Below are positions 32,357 through 39,477 of a stretch of DNA of 40,993 bases, one piece after another. The notes below the pieces were generated by a model. That model saw nothing but the letters and a program-made list of their open reading frames with translations, did not search any database and had not been told where the DNA came from. Each line of letters opens with the position of its first letter. The first letter of the stretch is position 1. Both the position numbers and the translations under genes were made by a program. The stretch spans positions 1 to 40,993 of the forward strand of contig CACIOK010000008.1 in assembly GCA_902588255.1 (NCBI GenBank), written 5' to 3'. The DNA is from an uncultured Pelagibacteraceae bacterium (GTDB lineage: Bacteria > Pseudomonadota > Alphaproteobacteria > Pelagibacterales > Pelagibacteraceae).

Positions 32357-32433
32357 TGGTAGCGGGAAGTGGGATCGAACCACTGACCTCGGGCTTATGA
32401 GTCCCGCGCTCTAACCAACTGAGCTACCCCGCC
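32357..32433 (-). tRNA. tRNA-Met (CAT anticodon)
   Basis: The 77-base gene folds as a cloverleaf: acceptor GGCGGGG pairing with the 3' segment, the D-arm GCTCAGTTGGTTAGAGC, the anticodon loop CTCATAA and the T-loop GGTTCGATCCC, with an encoded CCA end. The anticodon is CAU. It is most likely elongator methionine; a tRNA-Ile2 whose C34 is modified to lysidine cannot be excluded. The pair closing the anticodon loop is A31-G39, a mismatch, and acceptor pairs 1-72 and 7-66 are G-U. Confidence 0.92.
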
Positions 32434-34393: not shown

Positions 34394-35239
34394 TTATTTA
34401 ACTATTTTTATGTTAGCAACATAAAATGCAAGAACAAAATATTGAAGCAAAGCATACAAAGCAATAGGTGTAACATAAGAAATTTCACTAAATATTTGAG
34501 CTGTTATTATAAAGCCCATTGCACCATTCTGTAATAAACATTCAACTGTAATTGATCTTTGATTATCGATTCCATCAACAAAAAATTTAGTAAATATCAC
34601 CGATACCAGTAACACAAAAAATAAAATAATTGGGGCAACAATCCCTACATACTCAAAGTATCCACCTAGATTCATTCTTTCTTGATAAACAGCTATAGAT
34701 ATAATGAGTAAAAAAAGGACCATAGAGATTTTGTCAAATAAAAGAACAACTCTTTCTTTAAAATAATTAAAGTAACGATTGGTTATAATTCCAAGAATTG
34801 TTGGGATGGTAATTATAATAAAAATTTTAGTACTTACAATTTTAACATCAAAATTTTGAATTGGTTGATGCATTACAAGTTCAAAAAGAGCTGTCATTCC
34901 AATTGGGATAGTAAAGATACATAACAAACTACAAATTACTGTTAAAGTAATTGAAAGTGAAATATTTCCATCAACTAATCTTGTAGCATAATTAGACATT
35001 GTAGCTGATGGTAATAATAAAAGTAAAAGTATACCTATTTTTAATTCGTTTGGCATTGGATAAAAACTAACTATTAGCAAACCAATTATTGGAAGAAAAA
35101 TTAACTGACAAATTAAACCATAAATTAAATTTTTAGGACTTTTTAATAAGTCATAAAAATTAACAAAATTTAATTTTAGTCCTAATGAATACATGATAAA
35201 AAATATCGCAAAAGGACCTACCAGTTTTACAAATTCCAT
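34394..35239 (-). CDS. BASS-family (bile acid:sodium symporter-like) transporter
   Basis: The 281-residue membrane protein has about nine hydrophobic segments. MYSLGLKLNFVNFYDLL near the N terminus, LLLLPSATMSNYATRLVDGN, and a C-terminal ECLLQNGAMGFIITAQIF segment fit the BASS family. Members move organic acids such as pyruvate, pantothenate or sulfur compounds together with sodium, common in marine bacteria. The substrate is unknown. A 65-base AT-rich region separates it from the divergent nuclease gene. Confidence 0.8.
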   Translation of the reverse strand: MEFVKLVGPFAIFFIMYSLGLKLNFVNFYDLLKSPKNLIYGLICQLIFLPIIGLLIVSFYPMPNELKIGILLLLLLPSATMSNYATRLVDGNISLSITLTVICSLLCIFTIPIGMTALFELVMHQPIQNFDVKIVSTKIFIIITIPTILGIITNRYFNYFKERVVLLFDKISMVLFLLIISIAVYQERMNLGGYFEYVGIVAPIILFFVLLVSVIFTKFFVDGIDNQRSITVECLLQNGAMGFIITAQIFSEISYVTPIALYALLQYFVLAFYVANIKIVK

Positions 35240-35304: not shown

Positions 35305-35760
35305 ATGAATAAAAAAATAGTTTTAATTACTTTCTTTATATTGTTGTTAGGACAAAATGTATCGTCTAATACTGTTTATGTAATTGACGCAGATACTATA
35401 AAAATTGGAAATGAAAAAATTAGATTTACCGGAATTGATGCTCCAGAACTTAATCAAGATTGCTTTAAAAATGAAAGAAAAATTCTCTGCGGAGTTTTGG
35501 CAAAAAAAGCTTTATTAAAAAAGATTGGAAATAAAGTACCTAAGTGCATAATCGAAGGAAAGGATATCTATAAAAGAATTTTAGCAGAGTGTTTTGTTAA
35601 TGGAGATAGTCTTTCGAAATTTTTAGTTAGAAATGGTTATGCTTTTGCATATAGAAAATATTCCAAAAAATTTATTGAAGATGAAGAATTTGCCAGAAAA
35701 AATAAATTAGGTTTATGGTCTATGAGGTTTGAATATCCTTGGAAATTTAGAAAATTATAG
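35305..35760 (+). CDS. Secreted thermonuclease-family (SNase) protein
   Basis: The 151-residue protein has a signal peptide (MNKKIVLITFFILLLGQNVS) followed by the SNase core: VYVIDADTIKIGNEKIRFTG, IDAPEL with the catalytic Arg and Glu around it, and KDIYKRILAECFVNG with the second arginine. It is probably exported to the periplasm, where it would degrade nucleic acid. Two cysteine pairs may give disulfides. It ends with a 6-base overlap with the convergent small membrane-protein gene. Confidence 0.88.
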   Translation: MNKKIVLITFFILLLGQNVSSNTVYVIDADTIKIGNEKIRFTGIDAPELNQDCFKNERKILCGVLAKKALLKKIGNKVPKCIIEGKDIYKRILAECFVNGDSLSKFLVRNGYAFAYRKYSKKFIEDEEFARKNKLGLWSMRFEYPWKFRKL

Positions 35761-35976
35761 AGAAGCTATAATTCCAGTAGCAACTATTACTGAACTAATT
35801 ACACCAAAAAAAACTAGATTTTCTTTTTTTTGTTTTTTCTCTTCAGCTCTTACTCTTGACATTAAATTATTAATATCTACTCGACTTGAAATTTTTGATG
35901 GAGATTTAGAAGCTGAATAAACTTCAGATGGGGTCTTGATTTCTTGACCAGCTTCTATAGATCTTTCTCCACTCAT
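35755..35976 (-). CDS. Small tail-anchored membrane protein of unknown function
   Basis: The 73-residue protein has a Ser-rich polar N-terminal part (residues 1-30), a charged DINNLMSRVRAEEKKQKKEN helix (34-53), and one hydrophobic segment at the C terminus (54-72). This suggests a cytoplasmic domain anchored by its tail. I recognise no functional family. Its start codon lies in the right arm of a perfect 8-3-8 palindrome. The polar-to-hydrophobic organisation supports a real gene. Confidence 0.68.
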   Translation of the reverse strand: MSGERSIEAGQEIKTPSEVYSASKSPSKISSRVDINNLMSRVRAEEKKQKKENLVFFGVISSVIVATGIIASL

Positions 35977-35992
35977 GGTTTATTAAACCATG
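35974..35992. repeat. Perfect 8-3-8 palindrome over the start codon of the small membrane-protein gene
   Basis: CATGGTTT-ATT-AAACCATG is fully symmetric in its arms. On the minus strand the ATG in one arm is the start codon of the 73-residue protein. In mRNA the hairpin would hide that start codon; in DNA it could be an operator between two divergent genes. Confidence 0.65.
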
Positions 35993-36026
35993 AATTTTAA
36001 AATTGAACAATAAAAAGAATCACCAA

Positions 36027-36067
36027 TTTGGGTTGAACCCAAAATGGATTGTGTCCACTTTGGGTTT
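36027..36067. promoter_or_regulatory. Overlapping inverted repeats upstream of the double-HTH regulator
   Basis: TTTGGGTT occurs at 36027 and again at 36059, with its complement AACCCAAA at 36036. This gives two mutually exclusive hairpins: a 7-3-7 one (36027-36043), and an 11-5-11 one with a single mismatch (36038-36064, CCCAAAATGGA and TCCACTTTGGG). The repeats are GC-richer than their surroundings and end about 20 bases before the regulator start. They may be an autoregulatory operator or an RNA switch. Confidence 0.65.
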
Positions 36068-36088
36068 GATATATATATACTAAGAATT

Positions 36089-37036
36089 ATGAAAGTAGCA
36101 GTACCAAGTATATCCGCACAACTAACAGAAGATCAAATTTTTAAATCTATAAATGACAACTATTCTCAAATAACAAAAGTTTGGTTTAACTTTCAAATGG
36201 ACTGGATGCAAAGATCATATAACTCTTTTAAAGATCACGACAAATATTTAATTGTTGTATATTTAGTTCATAAAACACTTAAATTTTATAGTAATAATTT
36301 TATTAAATTAGATTTTGATACTTACTATTCTAAAAATTTATTAGAAATTCCTAATTTTAATATTATTAATATTTCTAGAGAATTAAATATAACAAAGGAA
36401 ACAGCTAGAAGAAAAATTTTAGAACTAGAAAAATTAGGTGCTATCCGAAGAAGTAGAAAGAAAATAATTTTAAATAGAAATGTTTTTCAATTCCAAAGAC
36501 CTAATAAATCAATGTTTGAGGCATCAAATCTTTTATCAAAGTTAACGGAAACACTGTACAAAAACGGAGATATGAATAAAAAAATAAGTTCTAAAAACAT
36601 AGAAATATATATGAGAAAAAATTTTACTCATTGTTGGAAGTTATTTTTTGATATGCAGATACCTTTGATTTTAAATTGGAAAAAGTTTTTTAACGATATT
36701 GAAACATGGCATATATGGGGAATCATTGCTACACAAAAAAGTTTCATAAATAATTCAGCAACTTTTAATCGTGAAAAATTTATAAAAGATACTTTTAAAG
36801 AAACTACCGGTGGAATTAATGCTATGTCTATTTCTGATTTAACTGGTATACCAAGAGCAACGGTCGTTAGAAAAATTAATACTTTATTAAATCGAAAATT
36901 AATCTCTGTTGATAACAAAAAACTTTATAGCCCTAAAAAAACATATGTGAAAAATGTTAACGACACACACAAACTCAATACTCTCTTACTAGTAAGTTTT
37001 TTTTGTAATATTATTAATTTAGTTCAAAGTAACTAG
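36089..37036 (+). CDS. Putative DNA-binding regulator with two helix-turn-helix regions
   Basis: The ATG at 36089 (MKVAVPSISAQL) is chosen; an in-frame ATG at 36044 lies inside the upstream repeats and would add 15 odd residues. The protein is 315 residues. Residues about 93-130 (NISRELNITKETARRKILEL, then a basic KLGAIRRSRKK) and about 245-280 (SISDLTGIPRATVVRKINTL, then LISVDNKK) each look like a winged helix-turn-helix. No ligand-binding domain or family is recognised. The convergent DMGDH-like gene overlaps it by 4 bases. Confidence 0.78.
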   Translation: MKVAVPSISAQLTEDQIFKSINDNYSQITKVWFNFQMDWMQRSYNSFKDHDKYLIVVYLVHKTLKFYSNNFIKLDFDTYYSKNLLEIPNFNIINISRELNITKETARRKILELEKLGAIRRSRKKIILNRNVFQFQRPNKSMFEASNLLSKLTETLYKNGDMNKKISSKNIEIYMRKNFTHCWKLFFDMQIPLILNWKKFFNDIETWHIWGIIATQKSFINNSATFNREKFIKDTFKETTGGINAMSISDLTGIPRATVVRKINTLLNRKLISVDNKKLYSPKKTYVKNVNDTHKLNTLLLVSFFCNIINLVQSN

Positions 37037-39477
37037 GTAAGCTTAATATTTTTATCTTTTAAAGGTTTTAATTCTAAGTTTACAGGATATTTTTGTTTTT
37101 CAACTTCAATAAATAGTTTTTTATCTTCGATTTCTTTTATTGAACTACCTGAATTAATATAGCCAAAAGACATATTTTTTTTATAATTAAAAGAGTAGTT
37201 CCCTGAAGTGGTTCTTCCAATTATTTTATCTTCTAAATAAATAGGTTCATCATGTAATAATAAAGGCTCTCCAGGTTTAGAATCTTTTAAAGAAAGCATT
37301 ACAAATTGCTTTGTGGGTTTTTGATCCTTAATTTTTAATAAAGCATCCTTTCCTATAAAATCCACATTTTTCTTATAACTTACTACAAAGTTTAATCCTG
37401 CTTGATATTGATTCTCTTCAGGAGATATATCATGACCCCAGTGTAAAAAACCACTCTCCATTCTCATTGTATCCATTGCATGCATTCCACAATTTGAAAT
37501 TTTATATTTTGATCCTTTTTCAATTATTAAATTATAAACTTTCCTTGCATCGTTAGCTTTTATATAAAGCTCATACCCTAACTCTCCAACATAAGACAGT
37601 CTTTGCGTCCAGATTTTTATATTATCAATTGAAATATATTTTGAAGTTGCAAATTTAAAATTTTCCTTTGAAAAATCATCTTTGGATAAATCTTGCATCA
37701 ACAATCTACTATTCGGGCCAAATACACCAAGTACACAGTAATCATCTGTAACATCCTTTAATATTAAATTATTTGGTAAATATTTATTTATATGAAACTT
37801 ATCTCTCTCTCTTGTTGCTGCAGAACTTATAATTCTAAAGTAATTTTTCTCTAAACATACGACAGTTAAATCAGTTTCTATACCTCCATCTGGATTAAGC
37901 ATTTGTGTATAAGTACATTTTCCAAGTTCATGTTTTATATTAGCTGTACAAAGTTTTTGTAGTTCTTCGTGTGCATTTTCTCCTTTTAATTCAAATTTTG
38001 AAAAAGGAGTTAAATCAAATAGTCCAATATTTTTTACTGTATTTTTGGTTTCAAACTCTACTGATGGATACCAATTTTGAAAGTTGTAACTATACTGATA
38101 CTCAGGTTTTTCTTTATCCTGCGCAAACCACATTGATCTTTCATATCCTCCGGATACTCCAAAACATGCTCCTGCTTTTTTTAATTCTTCATGGTAAGGA
38201 GTGATCATTACATTCCTTGATGTCTTATGTTGTTTAAATGGCCAATGCATTCCATATAAATCTCCTAAAGTTTCTGTAATTCTATCTTTTATAAAACCTA
38301 GGCTTGAGTGAAATTTCTGAAATCTCTTAATGTCGTAATTAAAAATATCTTCATTAATATGGCCATTCATTAACCATTCAGCAGTAACCTTACCTACTCC
38401 TCCGCCACTTCCAATACCGATACTATTTAGACCTGTGCAAACAAAAAAGTTTTTTATTTCTGGAACTTCGCCAAGTAAAGTATTTGTATCTGGAGTAAAG
38501 GACTCAGGACCTGCAAAAAATTTTCTAATTCCAGCAGTTTCTAAAATAGGAAATCTTTTTACTGCAGCTTCTAAATAAGGTTCAAAATGTTCAAAATTTT
38601 CTGGAAATTCACCAAATGAAAAATCATCTGGAACTTTGTTTGTTTTTTGAAAAGCTGGAATTGATTTACCCTCAAATATTCCGACTAATAATTTTCCCGC
38701 GTCTTCTTTTATATATAAACTATTATCAAAATCTCTTATTGTTGGTAAAATTTTTGGAAGATTTTCTATTGGTTCAGTAATAATATAAAAATGTTCTGCG
38801 GGATAAAGAGGTATACTAACACCTGATTGTTCTCCAATTTGTCTTGACCACATTCCAGTGGCTAAAACTATATACTCACATTCTATTTCCTGACCATTAA
38901 CTCTAACACCTGCAATTCGACCATTTTTGGTAAGTATTTTTTCAACAGGAGATTTTTCAAAAATTTTTGCACCCTCTAATTTTGCTGCTTTGGCAAGCAT
39001 ATTTGTAACACCAACAGGATCAGCTGCTCCATCTCCTGGCATTAAAATTCCTCCTAATATATTTTTTTCATTAACAATAGGAAAATCTTTTTTAATTTGA
39101 TTTTTTTCTAAAATTTGAACATCCACACCATATAATTGAGCAGTAGTTGCTTGTCTTTTTAACTCTTGCCACCTACCTGGATTTTGTGCAATTGATAAAG
39201 CTCCATTTAATTTTAAACCTGCAGAGTGATCAACTTTTTTTTCTAATTCTTTATATAAATCTAGAGTGTACTTTCTAATTTTAGTAATTGCGGCTGAAGG
39301 ACCTAATTGGCTCACTAAGCCTGCTGCATGCCATGTAGTTCCTGATGTAAGCTGATCCCTTTCTAGTAGTATAACATCTTTCCAACCAAATTTAGCAATA
39401 TGATAAGCACATGAACAACCTACAACTCCACCACCAATAACTACTACTTTACAGCTCTGAGGAATATTTTTTTTCAT
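37033..39477 (-). CDS. Dimethylglycine/sarcosine dehydrogenase-like FAD enzyme with GcvT domain
   Basis: The 814-residue protein combines an N-terminal FAD oxidase domain (about 1-370; VVVIGGGVVGCSCAYHIAKF and GTTWHAAGL with H50, the position of covalent FAD attachment in this family) with a linker domain and a C-terminal GcvT-type tetrahydrofolate domain (about 430-810; FDLTPFSKFEL, GMHAMDTMRMESGF and YQAGL). It would demethylate dimethylglycine, sarcosine or a similar N-methyl amine and pass the carbon to tetrahydrofolate, consistent with one-carbon use from glycine betaine. The exact substrate is not decided. The SET gene ends 26 bases upstream. Confidence 0.92.
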   Translation of the reverse strand: MKKNIPQSCKVVVIGGGVVGCSCAYHIAKFGWKDVILLERDQLTSGTTWHAAGLVSQLGPSAAITKIRKYTLDLYKELEKKVDHSAGLKLNGALSIAQNPGRWQELKRQATTAQLYGVDVQILEKNQIKKDFPIVNEKNILGGILMPGDGAADPVGVTNMLAKAAKLEGAKIFEKSPVEKILTKNGRIAGVRVNGQEIECEYIVLATGMWSRQIGEQSGVSIPLYPAEHFYIITEPIENLPKILPTIRDFDNSLYIKEDAGKLLVGIFEGKSIPAFQKTNKVPDDFSFGEFPENFEHFEPYLEAAVKRFPILETAGIRKFFAGPESFTPDTNTLLGEVPEIKNFFVCTGLNSIGIGSGGGVGKVTAEWLMNGHINEDIFNYDIKRFQKFHSSLGFIKDRITETLGDLYGMHWPFKQHKTSRNVMITPYHEELKKAGACFGVSGGYERSMWFAQDKEKPEYQYSYNFQNWYPSVEFETKNTVKNIGLFDLTPFSKFELKGENAHEELQKLCTANIKHELGKCTYTQMLNPDGGIETDLTVVCLEKNYFRIISSAATRERDKFHINKYLPNNLILKDVTDDYCVLGVFGPNSRLLMQDLSKDDFSKENFKFATSKYISIDNIKIWTQRLSYVGELGYELYIKANDARKVYNLIIEKGSKYKISNCGMHAMDTMRMESGFLHWGHDISPEENQYQAGLNFVVSYKKNVDFIGKDALLKIKDQKPTKQFVMLSLKDSKPGEPLLLHDEPIYLEDKIIGRTTSGNYSFNYKKNMSFGYINSGSSIKEIEDKKLFIEVEKQKYPVNLELKPLKDKNIKLT

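Follow-up and report, generated by a model that had tools for sequence, protein, structure and literature searches.

Introduction

SAR11 bacteria are very abundant in the ocean. Transcriptional regulators of the MarR family carry one winged helix-turn-helix (HTH) per chain and form homodimers, and among regulators of the MarR/SlyA/OhrR type the pairing with a divergent target gene is a general scheme. Proteins of the IclR family combine an N-terminal IclR HTH with a C-terminal effector domain, and the iteron-binding initiators of plasmids contain two winged helices. Oligotrophs of this kind are said, in the accessible part of one report, to have relatively few transcriptional regulators (PMC13198564).

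Here we analyse a stretch of 40,993 nucleotides from an uncultured Pelagibacteraceae bacterium (contig CACIOK010000008.1), referred to below as the window. One of its loci resembles the MarR/SlyA/OhrR scheme in having a winged-HTH regulator, a regulator gene beside its presumed target and sites in the gap that the two genes share. Published titles and visible abstracts, a search that mostly leaves subscription journals outside, returned no description of this regulator or of its site. Our best reading, drawn from sequence comparison, is that the locus encodes a regulator uncharacterised in SAR11 with an operator conserved as DNA. The genus-wide comparison shows a regulator together with a DNA site, a promoter layout and a very small candidate regulon; it singles out one conserved small protein whose function is unknown and makes the control circuit directly testable.

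Organization of the repeat cluster

The repeats sit in a 112-bp gap between a divergent small gene on the minus strand (35755-35976, 73 aa) and the regulator gene on the plus strand (36089-37036, 315 aa). Direct copies of TTTGGGTT are located at 36027-36034 and 36059-36066, a spacing of 32 bp in the window, and an inverted copy is located at 36036-36043. Exact matches to CCANTTTGGGTT number four in the 901,504-base genome; three of these occurrences fall within 44 bases of the window, so the three elements are beyond chance, and the organised triplet first noticed in the window is real. The fourth exact occurrence of this 12-mer is inside an open frame. The arms of the repeats can be extended to 12-13 bp, the first pair (36023-36034 and 36036-36047) having 1 nt between its arms and the second (36036-36048 and 36054-36066) having 5 nt, with 92% complementarity in each. 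The cluster had also been described as richer in GC than its surroundings, and the GC content of 36020-36065 is indeed 0.435, compared with 0.109-0.391 in the other 27 listed 46-bp intervals of 35800-36385.

Comparison of loci, described below, extends the conserved repeat to GTYCAWWWTGGGTT, an asymmetric 14-bp site in which a palindromic core, CCAWWWTGG, has unequal flanks. Copy 1 of this site, CACCAATTTGGGTT, occupies 36021-36034 on the plus strand and is the copy nearest the small gene. Copy 3, GTCCACTTTGGGTT, lies 32 bp from it at 36053-36066, also on the plus strand, in the presumed core promoter of the regulator. The inverted middle copy, AACCCAAAATGGAT as read on the plus strand, lies on the minus strand at 36036-36049 and is restricted to close relatives of the window. 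The site centres are 16 bp apart on each side, placing the middle copy midway.

The regulator protein

The regulator had been called a double-HTH protein in the preliminary description of this locus, which HTH-type matches at residues 83-130 and 234-283 confirm. The two halves of the protein are duplicates of one another (hhalign, 142 columns, E 1.3e-16), and their recognition helices are alike, with the consensus sequences IPKETxRRKI and IPRATVxRKL. HTH_IclR is the only Pfam model to pass its cut-off (27.8 vs 22 bits, residues 234-273), which makes the protein IclR-like in this respect; unlike in the IclR family, the match is in the C-terminal half of the protein and no IclR effector domain is among the matches. 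The likeness to MarR consists of weak HMM matches, both below the curated cut-off (MarR, 19.4 vs 24.6 bits; MarR_2, 20.3 vs 27), and of a fold search with a weak model in which OhrR was the best of 645 matches at E 0.14. That AlphaFold model was built from 4 sequences and is poor in its second half (mean pLDDT 67); used in a Foldseek search against the PDB, it matched nothing at E <= 0.001. A sequence search against solved structures returned HTH proteins only (best E 6.2e-4).

We prefer the ATG at 36089 as the start of the regulator gene on the evidence of the seven three-copy sequences discussed below, where it aligns in the six others, shifted by 1 base in one of them. The start of the listed open reading frame, an ATG at 36044 inside the inverted copy, is likewise kept in 7/7 of these sequences and may be the true start instead. 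The regulator is present in 144 of 201 same-genus genomes, including 25 of the 29 most complete, and, across the family, in 8 of the 14 genera sampled. A phage origin was considered and rejected, as no relative was confirmed in viral contigs.

Each chain of the regulator would form a single-chain pseudo-dimer, its two similar recognition helices reading the unequal halves of the site, and the CCAWWWTGG core with unequal flanks would suit one such two-headed chain. The pseudo-dimer is a candidate arrangement suggested by the duplication and the site; the low quality of the structure model over its second half weakens the case for it. A distance of 32 bp corresponds to about 109 angstroms, and the two copies of the site are therefore most likely bound by two chains.

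Conservation of the direct pair

We compared 141 regulator loci, 137 of them from same-genus genomes and four from named single-cell genomes, which are those of uncultured Pelagibacteraceae and mark the window's genome as SAR11-type (Pelagibacter-like). Upstream of the regulator, two direct copies of YCANNNTGGG stand exactly 32 bp apart in 94 of the 141 loci, and the next commonest spacings, 31 and 20 bp, occur 3 times each. The three-turn direct spacing claimed from the window is thus borne out, and it is the most telling feature of the cluster. A weight matrix detected the pair in 106 of the 141 loci (spacing 32 in 97, 31 in 6), compared with 3 of 592 control windows having a pair at 31-32 bp. 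Scanning all 555,697 bases of these loci gave 210 motif hits with scores of at least 16 within 260 bp upstream of the regulator, in a single orientation throughout, and 11 hits elsewhere. Among these 11, the gene downstream of the hit is a small gene convergent with the regulator in seven cases (L025, L076, L141-L145) and a truncated regulator in one (L133); the other three hits are at the beginning of a BASS-type transporter gene (L020, L064, L138).

The strict pair pattern is found at 95 places in 94 of the 201 same-genus genomes, vs 0 for a reversed control pattern. Ninety of these places are those of the fetched regulator loci. Elsewhere, a pair in G070 adjoins a partial regulator, pairs in G130:C54 and G078:C8 are near the contig start and beside a small gene, a pair in G146 is within the open frame of another gene, and a pair in G016, judged from its letters only, resembles chance. 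Elsewhere in the genome of the window, the closest approach to a pair has 2 mismatches, and allowing up to 3 mismatches gives 8 places vs 6 for the control. Single sites are not enriched genome-wide (86 vs 100 in the control). The regulon seems to be tiny, comprising the regulator itself and the small gene, with the BASS-type transporter added in some lineages.

Pair and regulator occur together: the pair is present in 92 of 144 genomes with a regulator match vs 2 of 57 genomes without one (Fisher p 8e-17; many genomes are incomplete), and the pairs in those two look like chance. The site is thus conserved upstream of the regulator gene and goes with the regulator, the pattern of an autoregulated transcription factor. 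The co-occurrence speaks against a reading in which another factor binds the site and controls the small gene, with the regulator being one target or a mere neighbour. Loci from other genera bear on that reading in both directions. Among 20 such loci, 14 are without a site at a score of at least 12 and L278 has a weak internal match only, and regulator loci without a site favour a different binding factor. In 5 of the 20 the site is near the start of the regulator frame, inverted relative to the genus pattern (g2, 4/4 loci, scores 14.1-22.0; L289, 17.7), and its presence at the regulator's own start in g2 argues for the regulator itself. The small gene is found in 6 of these 20 loci, with the motif upstream at a score of at least 12 in two (L285, L288). 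As judged from these comparisons, the link to the site is strong within the genus and thinner outside it.

The small gene and its upstream motif

The small protein has a hydrophobic C-terminal segment, recognised by eye, and is probably membrane-anchored. No model of Pfam or NCBIfam matched the window's small protein above its cut-off. Its family, defined by an RVDINxLKxR-type segment and a hydrophobic C-terminus, was matched in 152 of the 201 same-genus genomes, and the family profile was found in 127 of 141 same-genus regulator loci, where the gene is divergent from the regulator in 108, convergent in 18 and on the same strand in 1. In the window, the 3' end of the small gene overlaps that of a nuclease-like gene on the plus strand (35305-35760) by 6 bases, 35755-35760.

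The motif is located upstream of the small gene in 127/127 of these loci, with scores of at least 12 in 124 and of 10.1-10.3 in three. For the divergent cases this result is partly circular, as 94 of the regulator loci supplied the training pairs of the matrix; the 19 convergent or same-strand cases lie outside the training. Control windows reached a score of at least 12 in 2 of 2309 and of at least 6 in 19 of 2309. Thirteen small genes do not adjoin a regulator; 8 of them score at least 12, three about 10 and two lower. For nine of the 13, a clear regulator is present elsewhere in the genome, and of these 8 score at least 12 and one 10.6, while the unlinked gene of G108, a genome with a weak regulator match, scores 10.0. 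Close relatives, on this evidence from their sequences, keep the site before the small gene even where the gene has moved away from the regulator. Five small-gene paralogues, each from a genome that has the usual copy as well, are all without the site (0/5).

The site tracks the small gene at least as closely as it tracks the regulator, which again favours a separate binding factor. In G020, G137 and G116, incomplete genomes that alone among those read have a small gene and no regulator match, the site is degenerate or absent, as would be expected if the regulator were the binding protein. Taking both sides together, we consider control by another factor quite improbable.

Promoter layout

Reading from the motif towards the small gene, 72 of 89 divergent loci and 13 of 16 convergent or unlinked loci have an extended -10 sequence, TGNTTWAWT, at 32-34 bp, compared with 51 of 1780 shuffled sequences having it at 32-35 bp. 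The three misses among the 16 are L265-L267, unlinked small genes in which the site is about 100 bp from the ATG and the -10 is out of register. Transcription would be expected to begin at 47-49, the commonest place of the first ATG (64 of 105), suggesting that the small-gene mRNA is leaderless. In the window, the putative extended -10 of the small gene (TGG-TTTAAT, 35982-35990, minus strand) is conserved in position and has the ATG 6 bases downstream. A candidate -35-like box (TTGTTC, 36005-36010, minus strand) precedes it with a 17-bp spacer; its columns are partly conserved, and it was not reported by a consensus promoter scan. A perfect 10-bp inverted repeat, TCATGGTTTA/TAAACCATGA (35973-35993), spans the small gene's start codon and its presumed -10. 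By eye, this repeat is not kept in most relatives, and the -10 and ATG sequences may account for it.

On the side of the regulator, 35 of 38 loci with a short ATG distance have their best TTGACA-like box at offset 10, and 41 of 54 with a longer distance have it at offset 21. The two offsets differ by 11 bp, approximately one helical turn, and copy 3 overlaps the presumed core promoter of the regulator at both. The window itself is without a TTGACA box on this side. It has a putative -35-like box (TTGTGT, 36049-36054, plus strand), weaker than the TTGACA of many relatives, and, after a 17-bp spacer, a predicted -10-like box (TATATA, 36072-36077, plus strand); this weak promoter was not reported by the consensus scan. 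These promoter-like sequences suggest that the transcripts of both neighbouring genes start outside the repeats. The original assignment of the element to the promoter region of the regulator is supported.

Candidate control circuit

We lean, with moderate confidence, towards a DNA operator cluster through which the neighbouring tandem winged-HTH regulator would control its own gene, that of the small protein and in some cases the BASS-type transporter. That the regulator binds the site is likely, and on the strength of their co-occurrence we hold this part with good confidence. The two direct copies of GTYCAWWWTGGGTT, 32 bp apart, are on the same face of the helix. Copy 1, about 51 bp upstream of the presumed leaderless start, would most likely aid RNA polymerase at the small gene, and activation of this gene by the regulator is a moderately supported guess from that position. 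Copy 3, inside the regulator's own promoter, would repress the regulator, its position making autorepression likely. The inverted middle copy would be an extra site gained in the lineage of the window. A more elaborate version holds that the tandem regulator reads asymmetric sites such that their polarity and three-turn spacing decide between small-gene activation and self-repression, and that the inverted third site midway would lead to competing, mutually exclusive protein occupancy. We regard this version as unlikely.

The same regulator might instead, at the same sites, repress both genes, as a MarR-like repressor would do for a divergent pair, and be released by a ligand that is perhaps the BASS substrate. 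Its MarR-, TrmB- and IclR-like HTH matches are consistent with such a role, as are the sites close to the start of the regulator frame in the g2 loci and L289 and those within 12-17 bp of the transporter ATG in L138, L020 and L064, which are positions usual for repressors. The site of the small gene is, however, commonly about 33 bp upstream of the extended -10 and outside the core promoter, which is better suited to an activator, and we find double repression possible, though doubtful.

The SBF/BASS-type transporter gene (34394-35239, minus strand) is the regulator's commonest neighbour, with a homologue within the fetched stretch in 123 of the 141 loci: 43 downstream on the same strand as the regulator, 60 convergent and 20 upstream. 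Together with a gene for a GcvT-domain FAD oxidoreductase (37033-39477), it recurs beside the regulator in changing orientation. The substrate may serve as the signal for the regulator.

The inverted middle copy

The preliminary description had interpreted the three elements as two mutually exclusive hairpins sharing the middle arm. As RNA, this would be a switch in the leader of the regulator, a reading to which the window by itself lends some weight: the second hairpin is the fold of segment 36020-36070, with an energy of -19.7 kcal/mol (z -2.59), and 3 of 200 shuffles were as good. With the surroundings included the z value is -1.82, and the first hairpin has a 1-nt loop, so that its full closure as RNA is impossible. 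The inverted middle copy is present in 5 of 141 regulator loci, and in 89 of 94 pair loci the best inverted-copy match between the repeats reaches only 3-5 of 9 positions; most relatives are thus without the middle arm. A search of 399 genomes for the three-copy pattern with up to 2 mismatches returned 6, of which 5 are credible; the sixth (G156) has no genuine middle copy. Copy 1 is degenerate in G489.

Seven distinct three-copy sequences, including those of L039 and L040, were compared in a gap-free alignment. Pairing is retained in 78.6% of cells for the first hairpin and 83.5% for the second, changes in the outer arms break pairs, and 0 pairs in either hairpin are altered on both sides. 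Covariation of the arms in relatives, which had been proposed as the check on the hairpins, is therefore absent from both helices, the outcome named in advance as refuting them, and the claim of mutually exclusive hairpins is not supported. The A/T core is variable in copies 1 and 3, which have the same letter as each other at two core positions in all seven sequences (TT, AT or AA), whereas the middle copy is constant (AAA). Since the outer copies change together with the middle fixed, they keep their likeness to one another and not their complementarity to the middle. The mean pairwise identity of the middle copy is 96% vs 66-72% in the flanks, which makes the inverted copy a probable third site on which selection acts.

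For the remaining 90 pair sequences, pairing between the arms covers 4.3 and 4.8 of 8 positions, slightly better than the 3.6 and 3.9 obtained with shuffled spacers. This excess is in the direction of an RNA switch, and shared TTGAC boxes may explain it. No terminator-like site is found in 35600-36400. At the gathering threshold, Rfam has no match here, its only match in the window being a tRNA at 32360-32433. The presumed transcription starts also lie beyond the repeats, which tells further against a leader structure. Folding, pairing in the 94 loci and pair counts in the three-copy sequences were all non-supportive of a conserved RNA structure, and we consider an RNA switch extremely improbable. 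Under the DNA operator reading, the hairpin appearance would be a by-product of a lineage-specific third site.

Comparison with known systems

In being conserved and relatively GC-rich intergenic elements of SAR11, the repeats resemble the candidate structured RNAs of Candidatus Pelagibacter ubique (PMC2704228). In the accessible part of that study the headings of the main motifs name rpsB, rpsL, ffh and methionine biosynthesis, and, by gene names, none of its four minor motifs has the context of the window. The locus is like the iteron-binding plasmid initiators in combining two winged-helix modules with direct DNA repeats. Unlike those systems, it is on a chromosomal contig with tRNA and metabolic genes, its repeats are in a promoter, and the regulator has no Rep_3-type match, RepL matching weakly in 2 of 42 members. 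The arrangement is also like that of the MarR/SlyA/OhrR regulators with a divergent target. This locus differs from them in that each regulator chain carries two duplicated modules, in that MarR models stay below their cut-offs, and in that its site is an asymmetric 14-mer present as two direct copies 32 bp apart.
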